Both the position numbers and the translations under genes were made by a program. Positions 4,489-35,520 of a stretch of DNA of 64,000 bases are shown in pieces. Position 1 is the first letter of the stretch. Each line of letters starts with the position of its first letter. The stretch comes from Xanthobacter aminoxidans. GTDB taxonomy: Bacteria > Pseudomonadota > Alphaproteobacteria > Rhizobiales > Xanthobacteraceae. The stretch lies in assembly GCF_023571765.1 (NCBI RefSeq), contig NZ_JAMJXC010000001.1, forward strand, positions 248,001-312,000, in the 5' to 3' direction. The notes beneath the pieces are model-generated. The model had not been told where the DNA came from. It saw only the letters and a program-made list of their open reading frames with translations, and searched no databases.

Positions 4489-4702
4489 GGAAGCGTCCTC
4501 CGTTTGTGTCGCAGACCGCCGCACGGGCGCTTGCGTTCTGGATCGTCATTGCCGCCCGCGATCGCGACACGCCGTGATCGTATCAGCCCCATACGGTGCC
4601 CGCTTTGATTGGATGACGGAGCTTGCGTTGCGCTGGGCGCCGGTCGCAGCGGACCGCAGTGGCGCAGCGGGCGACGACGGGGTCTGCCTTCGCGTGAATC
4701 TG

Positions 4703-4731
4703 CTTTAAATCCATCGATATTGCGGTATAAT
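4703..4731 (+). promoter_or_regulatory. Candidate promoter of the peroxiredoxin gene
   Basis: The 50 bases before the peroxiredoxin gene are strikingly AT-rich for this genome and contain a consensus TATAAT at 4726-4731; the best -35 candidates (TGCTTT or CTTTAA at 4701-4708) are weak. The -10 box lies about 40 bases before the start codon. An activator such as OxyR could make up for a poor -35, but I see no convincing OxyR site. Confidence 0.4.
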
Positions 4732-4771
4732 ATTCACATATACAGTTTTCAGATGTTGATTGGAGATGACC

Positions 4772-5410
4772 ATGGCGACGCTGCGACTGGGCGATGTGGT
4801 TCCGGATTTCGAGGCCGTGACCACCGAAGGCCCCATCAAGTTTCATGAGTGGCTCGGCGACAGCTGGGGCATCCTGTTTTCCCACCCCAAGAACTTCACC
4901 CCGGTCTGCACCACCGAGCTGGGCCAGGCGTCCCACCTCAAGCCCGAGTTCGACGCGCGCGGCGTGAAGCTGCTCGGCCTGTCGGTGGATGCCATCGACA
5001 ACCACCCGGCCTGGGTGGGCGACATCAAGGATGCCACCGGCGCCACCCTCAACTTCCCGCTGATCGCCGATTCCGACCGCAAGGTCTCCGACCTCTACGA
5101 CCTCATCCACCCCAATGCGAACGACACGCTCACCGTGCGCTCGGTGTTCATCATCGGCCCGGACAAGAAGCTGAAGCTGTCGCTCACCTACCCGGCCTCC
5201 ACCGGCCGCAACTTCGCGGAAATCCTGCGCGTGGTGGACAGCCTCCAGCTCACCGCCAAGCACTCCGTGGCGACGCCGGTGGACTGGAAGAACGGCGACG
5301 ACGTCATCATCGTCCCCTCGCTCTCGGACGATGCCGCCAAGGAGAAGTTCCCGGACGGCTGGACCACCGTGAAGCCCTATCTGCGCGTGGTGCGCCAGCC
5401 CGGCGCGTGA
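4772..5410 (+). CDS. 1-Cys peroxiredoxin (Prx6 type)
   Basis: Thiol peroxidase that reduces hydrogen peroxide and organic peroxides. The active-site motif is PVCTTELG at about residue 45, within the segment FSHPKNFTPVC typical of the Prx6 subfamily; no second resolving Cys is seen, and the 212-residue length with the long C-terminal extension (WKNGDDVIIVPSLSDD...) fits 1-Cys enzymes. I chose the ATG at 4772 because TTGGAG sits six bases upstream; ATG 4766 and TTG 4760 are in frame but overlap that site. The gene is monocistronic, with an AT-rich promoter region before it and a palindromic repeat after it. Confidence 0.93.
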   Translation: MATLRLGDVVPDFEAVTTEGPIKFHEWLGDSWGILFSHPKNFTPVCTTELGQASHLKPEFDARGVKLLGLSVDAIDNHPAWVGDIKDATGATLNFPLIADSDRKVSDLYDLIHPNANDTLTVRSVFIIGPDKKLKLSLTYPASTGRNFAEILRVVDSLQLTAKHSVATPVDWKNGDDVIIVPSLSDDAAKEKFPDGWTTVKPYLRVVRQPGA

Positions 5411-29827: not shown

Positions 29828-30157
29828 TCAGAAGCACTCTTCCTCCAGCCTTTTCAGGTCGGTCAGCGCGACCTCGTCCTCGTGCTCCTCGAATAGCTCG
29901 ACCATGTAATAGACGTGGGAATGGAGCAGCAGCAGCTTGTCGCAGATGGTGGCGCCGCCCGCCTCTGCGGCTGACAGCCGGGCCTTGAAGCGGTCCCAGA
30001 AGGCGTTGCCATGGGCTGGGTCGTCGATGTAGCGGAACAGGTGCGTGAGCACCACTTTCATGTTCCCTTCGAAATCGATCCCCTGGAACGTCAGGTAGCG
30101 GTCCGGCGCTTCGAGCGCGAAGGGCAAAGCGGGAAAGCCGGCGGCAGCTTCGGTCAT
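29828..30157 (-). CDS. cowN: CowN, protects nitrogenase against carbon monoxide
   Basis: 109-residue protein. CowN was described in Rhodospirillum and Rhodobacter as needed for N2-dependent growth when CO is present, acting on Mo-nitrogenase. The family signature is complete: [59 protein letters not shown] and the C-terminal LEEECF (usually LEEECC). The N-terminal 20 residues are family-variable. GGAGGACGATGC precedes the ATG at 30157. It lies directly downstream of the rcoM-like gene with 142 bases between, where two direct repeats sit, so CO-dependent control is likely. It implies that the organism fixes nitrogen. Confidence 0.92.
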
Positions 30158-30216
30158 GCATCGTCCTCCATCGGGCGCCGAAGCGCGTCGAGGAGACCAT
30201 GGGCGGTGAAGGGAGC

Positions 30217-30230
30217 CGGCTTCAAAGCCG
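30217..30230. promoter_or_regulatory. Short perfect palindrome upstream of cowN
   Basis: CGGCTT-CA-AAGCCG, a 6-bp inverted repeat with a 2-base centre, 60 bases before the cowN ATG. It could be an operator half-site pair or a leader hairpin. Confidence 0.35.
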
Positions 30231-30251
30231 AAGGCGCGGCCCACAAGCGTC

Positions 30252-30284
30252 CTGCACGAACGGCATCAGGGCTGCACGAACGGC
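30252..30284 (-). promoter_or_regulatory. Two 13-bp direct repeats, candidate RcoM operator
   Basis: On the minus strand GCCGTTCGTGCAG occurs twice (30284-30272 and 30264-30252), 20 bp apart, so both lie on nearly the same face of the helix. LytTR proteins bind direct repeats about two helical turns apart. Each copy contains TTCGTG, and TTGTGG at 30246-30241 may be a third TTnnnG element of the kind I recall for RcoM. They lie 95-130 bases before cowN, a fitting place for an activator. Confidence 0.5.
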
Positions 30285-30299
30285 GGTCGGCGCCGCGCC

Positions 30300-31100
30300 T
30301 CAGACCCCCAGCCGCCGCCGGATATCCTCCACCTTGCCCCGGCTGACCGGGACCCGTGTCTCGCCGGCATCCGCCATGACGAGATGCCAGCCGCCGTCCT
30401 CACGCGCGGCGGCGCGAACGTGGCGCATGTTGACGAGATAGCGCCGATGCACGCGCACGAACTGCGCTGGATCGAGCCGGCGCTCCAGATCGGCGAGCGG
30501 CCGCGGGCAGAAGGCGGAGAAGGTGGCGGTGCGCGCCTCCGCATAGTGTCCCTGCGCCACCAGGAAGGCGACTTCGGTCACGTCGATGAGGCTGATGACA
30601 TCGCCCTTGCCGCGCACCAGCGGGAGTTTCATGAGGGGGCACAGGGCTGCCATGGCCTCCGCGCCCGCCACCGCCAGCCCCTCCACCTCCAGATCGGCCC
30701 CGGCGGTGCGGCCCATCATGGGCGCCTCGACCAAGGCGTGGATCATCATCAAGAAACCGTCGGGCGGGGCGTCCGGTGCGGCCTCGAGCCGGCTGACCTT
30801 GGCGACCAGCGTGCCCATGGCGGTGGTCACCACCAGGGAGGAGGTGCCGTCCTGCGAGGCGCGGGCGCGCTCGATGAGAAAAGCCACCTTGTCCCGCGCT
30901 TCGCTGGGATGGAGCGAGAGGATATCCACACCCGCGAGCCGCTGCCCCGCCGGCGCGAGCAGCCGCAGCGCCACCGGATTGACCGAGCGGATGCGCAGAT
31001 CCGTGTCGAGCAGCACCACACCCACCGGCGTGCGCTGGAGGCGGTATTCAAATGACTGTGCGGCGGCGAGGGACGGGTTCGCGCGGGATGTGACGGCCAT
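30300..31100 (-). CDS. rcoM: RcoM-like PAS-LytTR carbon monoxide sensor/regulator
   Basis: 266-residue one-component regulator: N-terminal PAS domain (about 17-125) and C-terminal LytTR DNA-binding domain (about 160-265). The PAS part follows Burkholderia RcoM closely: GVVLLDTDLRIRSVNPVALR and VDILSLHPSEARDKVAFLIE, where His64 falls on the RcoM heme-ligand His. The redox-exchanged Met ligand is less certain; a Met in TTAMGTLVAKVS is a few residues off. The LytTR part has VAFLVAQGHYAEARTAT, LADLERRL and FVRVHRRYLVNMRHVRA. It lies directly upstream of cowN on the same strand, as expected for CO control of nitrogenase protection. PAS-LytTR proteins with other signals remain possible. Confidence 0.8.
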   Translation of the reverse strand: MAVTSRANPSLAAAQSFEYRLQRTPVGVVLLDTDLRIRSVNPVALRLLAPAGQRLAGVDILSLHPSEARDKVAFLIERARASQDGTSSLVVTTAMGTLVAKVSRLEAAPDAPPDGFLMMIHALVEAPMMGRTAGADLEVEGLAVAGAEAMAALCPLMKLPLVRGKGDVISLIDVTEVAFLVAQGHYAEARTATFSAFCPRPLADLERRLDPAQFVRVHRRYLVNMRHVRAAAREDGGWHLVMADAGETRVPVSRGKVEDIRRRLGV

Positions 31101-31303
31101 AACTCCCGATCCGGTGCCCCAACGGGCGGGGGTATCCTACGCCGGGCGTCCCTCATGCCAAGGCCGAGCCGCCTCAAAAACGCCCGTTTGCCACGATGAG
31201 GCCGCATGGATACTTTACGCGCCCTCGTCCCGGTGCGGCGTCGCCGGCAAGGTCCTGCTTCGGCAGGCCACCCCCAAGTCCTGGATCCCGAAGCTCTCAG
31301 CTC

Positions 31304-33805: not shown

Positions 33806-34933
33806 TCAGCCCTTCAGAAAGGCGACCTGATCGAAGATCTCGCCGAACTGGGTGCCGACGCAGTCGGGCTCCGGGTGCTTCACCGGGACCGGGCCGACCG
33901 CCGCATCGAAGATGTCCGGCCGGTAGACCCCCATGGCCTCGCGCGCGGCGTCGGCGGCGAACTCGCCCTGGCCGGCAGCGACGATCTGGGCATACATCCA
34001 CAGCGCATGGTCCGGCGCCGGCCGGTTGGCGCCATCGCGGTTGAGCACCAGATAGTCCGGATGGGACCTGAGCACCCCGCCCGGCGCGGTGTGGAGCCGG
34101 CCGTCCAGCGTGCGGCGGAGGATGTCGGCTGGCAGGTTGAGGTGGCGCGGCTCCCCCAGCAGCTTGGCGAGGTCCTCATGGTTGGCCGGGTCCTCGCACC
34201 AGCGGGCCGCGGCGTAGAGGGCGCGTACGAGGCGGTGCAGCACCTCCGGCTCGGCATTGGCGAAGCGGGCGTGGACGCCCAGCACCTTCTCCGGCACCCA
34301 GCCGAACAGCTCGGCGCCGAGCACCGCGATGCGGCCAACGTCTGAATCGACCGCCACCGAATTCCAAGGCGAGCCCACCGAGAAACCGTGGATGAGCCCG
34401 CCGCGCAGGCTTTCCGCCATGAAGGGCGGCGGCACCACCACGAGGCGCACGTCGCGGTCCGGGTCCACCCCGCCGGCCTTGAGGAAATGGCGGATCAGAT
34501 AGGTGTGGGTGGAGAAGGAATAGACCGCGGCGAACACCAGCGGGTCACGCCCCTCCGCCTTCCTCTGCCGCACCACCTTGCCCAGCGCCAGCGCTGCGCC
34601 GGGGGCCGTTGAAAGGTCTTCGCCCACCTCGCCCATGGCCGCGTAGACGTGCTTGTCGATGGTGATGGCGCTGCCATTCAGGTTGAGCGCGAACGGCACC
34701 ACCAGCGGCACCCGCACATGGCCGAGGCCGAGCGAGGAGGCGATGGCGAGCGGTCCCAGCATGTGGGCGCCGTCCAGGAGGCCGATGTTCACCTTGTCAC
34801 GGATGTTGGCCCAGGAGACCTCCTTGTGCAGGTCGATCTCGATGCCCTCGGCCATGGCGAAGCCGCGCTCCGCTGCAGCGATCAGCACGGCGGCGTCGGT
34901 CAGGGGAATGAAGCCGATGGCGAGGCGTCTCAT
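33806..34933 (-). CDS. nasS: NasS-type nitrate/nitrite sensor (NrtA-family binding protein)
   Basis: 375 residues, no signal peptide: a cytoplasmic relative of the periplasmic nitrate-binding protein NrtA/CmpA. Evidence: IGFIPLTDAAVLIAAAERGF at the start, GLLDGAHMLGPLAIASSLGL near 65, VYSFSTHTYLIRHFLKAGG near 150 and HGFSVGSPWNSVA near 195. NasS holds the antiterminator NasT until nitrate or nitrite binds. The ATG overlaps the nasT stop by four bases (ATGA). No assimilatory nitrate reductase gene is in this window, so the targets lie elsewhere. Confidence 0.9.
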   Translation of the reverse strand: MRRLAIGFIPLTDAAVLIAAAERGFAMAEGIEIDLHKEVSWANIRDKVNIGLLDGAHMLGPLAIASSLGLGHVRVPLVVPFALNLNGSAITIDKHVYAAMGEVGEDLSTAPGAALALGKVVRQRKAEGRDPLVFAAVYSFSTHTYLIRHFLKAGGVDPDRDVRLVVVPPPFMAESLRGGLIHGFSVGSPWNSVAVDSDVGRIAVLGAELFGWVPEKVLGVHARFANAEPEVLHRLVRALYAAARWCEDPANHEDLAKLLGEPRHLNLPADILRRTLDGRLHTAPGGVLRSHPDYLVLNRDGANRPAPDHALWMYAQIVAAGQGEFAADAAREAMGVYRPDIFDAAVGPVPVKHPEPDCVGTQFGEIFDQVAFLKG

Positions 34934-35520
34934 CGCAGAAGCTCCGCGGCGGTGATGATGGATTGGGCGATGTCGACGATGCGCTTCTTTTCGTTCATGG
35001 CGGTGCGGCGCAGGAGGTGGTAGGCGGCCTCCTCGTCGATGCCCTTCATCTTCATGAGCAGCATCTTGGCCCGGTCGATGGCCTTGCGCTCTTCCAGCTG
35101 GGTCTTCGCCTCCTCCAGCTCCGCCTTGAGGCGGGCGAAGGCGCGGAAGCGGGAGATGGTGGTTTCGAGGATCGGCTTCACCCGCTCCTTCCTCAGCCCG
35201 TCCACCACATAGGAGGCGACGCCCGCCTCGATGGCGTCCTCGATGGTCTTCGAGTCGGTCTGGTCCACGAACATGGCGACCGGTCGCTTCACCTCGCGGC
35301 TCACCTGGAACATCTGCTCGATGGTGTCGCGGGAGGGATCTTCGAGGTCGATCAGAATCACGTCCGGATCGATGGCGTAGATGCGCTCCAGCAGGTTGTT
35401 GCGGCCGGTGATGCGCAGCACCGTCTCGAAGCCCGCCTCCTTGAGACCCTCCTCCAGGATGGCGGCGCGCACGTCGCTCTCGTCGACGATCACGATCCTG
35501 AGGGTGAGGTCGTTCGCCAT
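34930..35520 (-). CDS. nasT: NasT-type ANTAR antiterminator
   Basis: 196 residues: an N-terminal pseudo-receiver (about 8-125) with VILIDLEDPSRDT and a C-terminal ANTAR RNA-binding domain (about 130-190): ERKAIDRAKMLLMKMKGIDE, AAYHLLRRTAMNEKKRI and VDIAQSIITA. NasT binds hairpins in the leader of nitrate assimilation transcripts and prevents termination when NasS releases it. It is the first gene of a two-gene operon; the ATG at 35520 has no strong site. The upstream 250 bases to the glycosyltransferase-like gene are free. Confidence 0.9.
   Translation of the reverse strand: MANDLTLRIVIVDESDVRAAILEEGLKEAGFETVLRITGRNNLLERIYAIDPDVILIDLEDPSRDTIEQMFQVSREVKRPVAMFVDQTDSKTIEDAIEAGVASYVVDGLRKERVKPILETTISRFRAFARLKAELEEAKTQLEERKAIDRAKMLLMKMKGIDEEAAYHLLRRTAMNEKKRIVDIAQSIITAAELLR

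Follow-up and report, generated by a model that had tools for sequence, protein, structure and literature searches.

The locus analysed here raises the question of whether a carbon monoxide (CO) sensor of the RcoM type serves as a dedicated switch for cowN, the product of which protects nitrogenase from CO. It lies within a stretch of 64,000 nucleotides, hereafter the window, of the 5.8-Mb genome of Xanthobacter aminoxidans, where rcoM and cowN are found on the same strand, with rcoM upstream and a gap of 142 bp (30158-30299) between them (see the table below). Pfam searches with the 266-aa rcoM product, which contains the sequence SLHPSEARDK, revealed PAS_4 (33.4 bits; cut-off 23.1) and LytTR (68.1 bits; cut-off 22.6) domains. 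CowN, which is 96% identical to its counterpart in Xanthobacter sp. YC-JY1, reached 104.3 bits against the NCBIfam equivalog model NF033689 (cut-off 48) and 107.6 bits against Pfam PF20543 (cut-off 27). An earlier note on this DNA had described an RcoM-like PAS-LytTR protein encoded beside, and directly upstream of, a cowN gene; both identities, the coordinates and the gene order are borne out by these matches. The cowN reading frame extends from an ATG at 30157 to a stop at 29828 (109 aa); a longer, GTG-started ORF of 138 aa was also present in the ORF list, and the ATG is favoured because the alignments of relatives begin there.

Features of the rcoM-cowN locus, in window coordinates.
Feature	Position	Strand	Description
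rcoM	30300..31100	(-)	266-aa PAS-LytTR one-component regulator; heme His candidate H64
cowN	29828..30157	(-)	109-aa N2-fixation sustaining protein CowN
sigma-70-like promoter ahead of rcoM	31134..31161	(-)	TTGGCA-16-TAGGAT, consensus match only
operator repeat 1 TTCGTGCA	30273..30280	(-)	perfect match to RcoM consensus TTCNNGCA
operator repeat 2 TTCGTGCA	30253..30260	(-)	perfect match; 12 bp after repeat 1
candidate third repeat GCCGCGCC	30233..30240	(-)	same 20-bp period; degenerate, weak

The pair looks isolated among its neighbours. Pfam matches were obtained for seven of the nine neighbouring ORFs scanned (YbjN, pyrroline-5-carboxylate reductase, DUF188, a TPR protein, an EngA/Der-type GTPase, an NMT1-like protein and an ANTAR regulator), and we know of no CO link for any of these seven genes. 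At 33809-35520 on the minus strand, an ANTAR response regulator is followed by the NMT1-like binding protein, an arrangement resembling that of a NasT-NasS nitrate-control pair. The promoter-like match ahead of rcoM had a mean expectation of 0.1 in shuffles of the region, and no promoter of the sigma-70 consensus type was detected in front of cowN.

The adjacency of rcoM and cowN is more than chance. Among 14 genomes of the genus, cowN was detected in nine, the same nine that carry a near-full-length rcoM, and in all of them (9/9) rcoM is directly upstream of cowN; another genus genome (G299) gave a weak rcoM match, with 30% identity over residues 80-264 only. The same order was found in 14 of 18 named cowN loci, from Xanthobacter, Azospirillum, Rhodoblastus, Magnetospirillum, Pararhodospirillum and two MAGs. 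In one of the remaining loci (L058) the LytTR half only is upstream of cowN, and RcoM was absent from the flank examined in the other three (L066, L069, L072), adjacency being sought up to 5 kb in named cowN genomes and 1.5 kb in others. A class sample of 385 genomes provided 14 RcoM-profile matches at E 1e-20. Four of them span both PAS and LytTR, and all four adjoin cowN: the window genome, L119 (with a gap sequence identical to that of L071), L120 and L121. In the other ten, the match is restricted to LytTR in nine and starts at profile position 70 in one (L123), and cowN was absent from all ten loci; the profile rests mostly on cowN-linked rows and may therefore miss some cox-linked RcoM in this sample. 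Within the order sample, cowN occurred in 20 of 297 genomes, with RcoM inside the 1.5-kb flank in one, the window genome. Five weaker matches of the family sample were left out of the locus comparison, plasmid records contained no cowN match at E 1e-5, and no second RcoM was found in the window genome.

The rcoM-cowN pair of L121 is very divergent; its RcoM has a His in the ligand column and reads HHD for LHP, and its gap looks AT-richer, without an operator. In L058 (Azospirillum doebereinerae), the LytTR half of RcoM beside cowN (4514-4834) comes after what appeared by eye to be a TatA-like frame, and a search of all three preceding forward frames revealed no PAS half. The operator there has one imperfect repeat and a CooA-like site is present; possibly the sensor is being replaced.

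The gap carries a conserved, predicted RcoM-type operator, a feature absent from the earlier note. The published RcoM-1 site, as described in the accessible part of PMC11347149, consists of three TTCNNGCA repeats with spacings of 12-13 bp. The motif TTCGTGCA-N12-TTCGTGCA at 30253-30280 (minus strand) corresponds to this repeat and this spacing. The candidate third repeat agrees with the consensus at three of six informative positions, a weak match, and several other Xanthobacter read ATCGCGCC or GTCGCGCC at this position. Repeat pairs were scored on six informative positions per repeat (maximum 12), after merging gaps of identical sequence (L028/L055, L030/L057, L031/L056, L033/L068 and L071/L119), which reduced 30 gaps to 25. 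A pair with a period of 20 bp scoring 11 or 12 was found in 22 of the 25 distinct rcoM-cowN gaps, across several genera, and at no other period between 12 and 30 did more than five of the 25 have a pair of at least 11; these gaps are related sequences rather than independent draws. None of 300 shuffles of the window gap reached its pair score, and the shuffle fractions of the 22 gaps ranged from 0.0033, the floor, to 0.0133. When equal 200-bp upstream windows were compared, a score of at least 11 was obtained in 21 of 25 linked versus none of 40 unlinked cowN regions. With windows of this size the linked count is 21 rather than 22, and the triple at -222 in Pararhodospirillum, the one unlinked cowN gene with such repeats further upstream, falls outside.

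Three linked gaps scored below 11 (L059 and L063, 10 each; L121, 9). The best pairs of L060 and L061, scoring 11, include TGCAAGCG and may be a different element. A good third copy at period 20 was found in L062, L064, L065, L067, L070 and L120; it is weak in Xanthobacter. In Pararhodospirillum oryzae (L066), an RcoM-type triple repeat lies 222 bp before the cowN match; no rcoM was detected within 5 kb upstream of cowN, and the contig ends 89 bp after the match. As a positive control, the region upstream of the cox subunit M gene beside the P. aromaticivorans RcoM-like gene reads TTAACGTA-13-TTCGTGCA-12-TTCGAGAA, that is, with periods of 21 and 20 bp. In that cluster, the ompW-rcoM gap likewise contains a pair scoring 11, with a period of 21 bp; therefore, the score alone is not fully specific.

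A bare match to the repeats is not rare. Allowing up to one mismatch, the operator pattern occurs once in the window versus 0.37 expected, and at least one match was found in 30 of 100 shuffles; genome-wide, the loose pattern gave 22 matches versus 35 for a reversed control. The operator claim is thus carried by conservation. Two further roles for the repeats were considered and rejected. For autoregulation, no pair of at least 11 was found upstream of rcoM in 15 loci (best score 10, in L055), and a wider regulon is not indicated by these genome-wide counts, with no enrichment over the control. These data also bear on a different account of the locus, in which RcoM is a repressor of cowN or acts mainly on a different gene, and the two are adjacent only through shared inheritance. 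Repression has a precedent in the LytTR regulator CoxC, a repressor released by CO according to the accessible part of PMC11347149. Against it, the operator is located upstream of cowN and not of rcoM, the window genome has neither a CoxL over the cut-off nor a Ni-CODH that could be another target, and 20 of the 21 other loose-pattern sites fall inside ORFs of 100 aa or more. The last test is weak because the genome is GC-rich, the cowN site itself being inside a 111-aa antisense ORF. Altogether, we regard this account as extremely improbable.

Conserved RcoM-type repeats were found instead of the sites expected of the regulators known to act on cowN elsewhere. A site of the NifA type (TGT-N10-ACA) is absent from the whole window, and it occurred in none of 25 linked versus 11 of 40 unlinked cowN upstream regions. 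In ten of these 11 it overlaps a CooA-like palindrome, an arrangement described for G. diazotrophicus cowN in the accessible part of PMC8047169. CooA-like palindromes were present in 14 of the 40 unlinked regions and in none of the other 26, and the single CooA-like match among linked regions was that of L058, the RcoM of which is without a PAS domain. A CooA-like query gave no match in the window genome and weak matches in eight of the 14 genus genomes (best 40.6 bits), which are probably other CRP-family proteins. These observations argue against cowN being mainly under nitrogen control by NifA, or under CooA, with RcoM as a passenger or minor input. Such control has precedents, since cowN is tied to both regulators in R. 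capsulatus and G. diazotrophicus (PMC8047169, in the part available), and NifA could use a more distant or variant site; for the window we nonetheless consider it very unlikely. The suggestion of the earlier note that RcoM provides an alternative to CooA and NifA is supported by the repeats in the gap and by the missing NifA site and CooA-like match. In five other loci, four from the order sample (L011, L017, L018, L019) and one from the family sample (L044), a CRP-type, CooA-like regulator is encoded just upstream of cowN, and overlapping NifA and CooA-like palindromes occur in four of the five.

Whether the predicted switch would respond to CO depends on the PAS domain. The RcoM reference was L073, a cox-linked RcoM-like protein of P. 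aromaticivorans pBN2 standing in for RcoM-1 and RcoM-2 of P. xenovorans LB400, for which Pfam reports LytTR only. We take the heme His and Cys of P. xenovorans RcoM to be His74 and Cys94; the ligand residues of L073 (His75, Cys95 and Met105) correspond to the published numbers plus one. The alignment comprised 25 linked rows, 24 of them PAS-bearing, L058 being without a PAS domain. H64, in SLHPSEARDK, aligns with His75 of L073, and every one of the 24 PAS-bearing linked rows, like both cox-type rows, has His in this column. The RcoM-type heme His proposed in the earlier note is thus retained, unlike the other two known heme ligands of Paraburkholderia RcoM. In the accessible part of PMC9670170, Met104 is described as the CO-replaceable heme ligand of Paraburkholderia RcoM, and a Cys as a heme ligand. 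The Met104 column (Met105 of L073) is Leu89 in the window protein and L in 17, M in five and I in two of the 24 rows. Cys95 of L073 faces a gap in one alignment and Asp84 in a second, the only Cys residues of the window protein being 154 and 198. The sixth ligand must therefore differ or be missing, and, with only the His of three known ligands kept, neither heme binding nor CO displacement can be deduced from that residue by itself. The window protein is not strictly equivalent to P. xenovorans RcoM at Met104 and Cys94. By its architecture, its His and its operator, it would nevertheless be expected to work like an RcoM.

Six residues past Leu89, Met95 is conserved as M in 21 of the 24 PAS-bearing linked rows and aligns with an Asp of L073. 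The divergent rows without its equivalent (L119, L120 and L121) have a Met at column 89 or 90 instead. It may represent a relocated ligand or a simple hydrophobic exchange; Met118, Met119 and His121 are further candidates, with Met95, for a replacement sixth ligand. The predicted model of the window protein has PAS and LytTR folds (mean pLDDT 71.1), with Met95 at the tip of a predicted hairpin of pLDDT below 50. Ligand labels clustered on a tree no better than in shuffles, and the placement of L120, L121 and the cox rows is unreliable owing to long branches. Foldseek and VIA-align identified both predicted folds as common, and none of the structure chains matched by P0002, the L073 protein or the A2 profile was named RcoM. 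The available part of a heme-PAS preprint arising from the fold search contains no mention of RcoM (PMC13060918).

These ligand data leave room for a reading in which RcoM controls cowN through the repeats in response to a signal that is not simply CO, such as redox state, O2, NO or a different ligand, with heme or some other cofactor as the sensing group. The changes at Met104 and Cys94 would fit it, as would the resemblance of the predicted PAS fold to many PAS domains, heme-binding and not. The invariant His speaks against it, as does the nature of the target, CowN being described as acting against CO in the accessible part of PMC8047169, and we find this reading rather unlikely.

Consistent with the expectation in the earlier note that the organism fixes nitrogen, nifD was detected in the window genome with 888 bits (cut-off 653.55), and the host is probably a nitrogen fixer. 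N-terminal nifH fragments with identical scores at the start of contig C26 and the end of contig C31 of this genome (G000) suggest that the genome has more than one copy of nifH and that the assembly broke them. In another genus genome (G297), contig C2 has extra nifD-model matches below the cut-off (365 and 284 bits), which may represent an alternative nitrogenase. In the search for form I CoxL, the window genome had no match over the TIGR02416 cut-off; of the 14 genus genomes, only one (G299) did. The window genome has 20 weaker CoxL matches; the best, the one read for its motif, carries AYRGAGR, which we take not to be the form I motif, AYRCSFR. Ni-CODH was found in none of the 14 genus genomes, the window genome included. 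That the organism meets CO is something we infer. In G299, which is 88% complete and in which cowN was not found, contig C323 carries a coxL fragment and a 492-aa open frame with a LytTR-like match; this frame is perhaps a CoxC-type MHYT regulator.

Based on gene identities, conserved order, co-occurrence and the conserved RcoM-type operator in the gap, we consider that rcoM and cowN probably form a self-contained, dedicated CO-responsive switch that activates cowN to protect nitrogenase. RcoM would be made from its own upstream promoter, rcoM being transcribed separately, and would bind heme in its PAS domain through His64. Binding of CO to the ferrous heme would then allow the LytTR domain to bind the two TTCGTGCA repeats in the gap and to activate, rather than repress, transcription of cowN, independently of NifA. 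CowN would bind nitrogenase and weaken its affinity for CO, allowing N2 fixation to proceed. The sensor steps follow the RcoM mechanism known from Paraburkholderia, as given in the accessible parts of PMC9670170, PMC11160397 and PMC11347149; binding of CowN to nitrogenase, with lowered CO affinity and sustained N2 fixation, is described in that of PMC8047169. It is also conceivable, if on balance somewhat doubtful, that the alphaproteobacterial RcoM proteins are a branch devoted to guarding nitrogenase, and not to CO oxidation, that controls only cowN, without NifA, and in which most members have lost Met104 and Cys94, with another sixth ligand or a five-coordinate heme. This locus offers a concrete model of CO sensing and nitrogenase protection in nitrogen fixers without CooA, and names a DNA site for mutation. 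In addition, natural RcoM variants with changed possible heme ligands would help in understanding the tight binding of CO by RcoM.

The rcoM-cowN pairing is itself prior art. In Rhodospirillum rubrum, rcoM was reported adjacent to cowN (accessible part of PMC4257681, 2014, citing Kerby and Roberts 2011), and this was the only source found for rcoM with cowN in a full-text search with most subscription journals outside its coverage. The window shares this gene neighbourhood in a different genus, the comparison covering gene order. What seems new is the perfect RcoM repeat pair in the Xanthobacter gap, an operator that is possibly already published. A CO-sensing regulator is likewise tied to cowN in the cooA-cowN arrangements of Gluconacetobacter diazotrophicus and Rubrivivax gelatinosus, the adjacency in Rubrivivax being stated in the accessible part of PMC4257681, and in the CooA/NifA-controlled cowN of R. 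capsulatus. The CooA site, tGTCg-N6-tGACa, differs from the RcoM-type repeats, and the NifA site present in G. diazotrophicus cowN has no counterpart here. CoxC of Afipia carboxidovorans (MHYT-LytTR) shares with the window protein a LytTR DNA-binding domain, with TTNNNGCN repeats; unlike it, CoxC is a membrane MHYT sensor using copper and a repressor of cox genes. In contrast to RcoM-1 and RcoM-2 of P. xenovorans LB400, the window protein has Leu89 in the Met104 column, no Cys94 counterpart and a degenerate third repeat at its putative target, which, unlike that of L073 (30% identity), would be cowN and not cox genes. With these two regulators, compared through L073, it shares the PAS-LytTR architecture, the heme His in an LHP motif and TTCNNGCA direct repeats spaced by 12-13 bp at the target.
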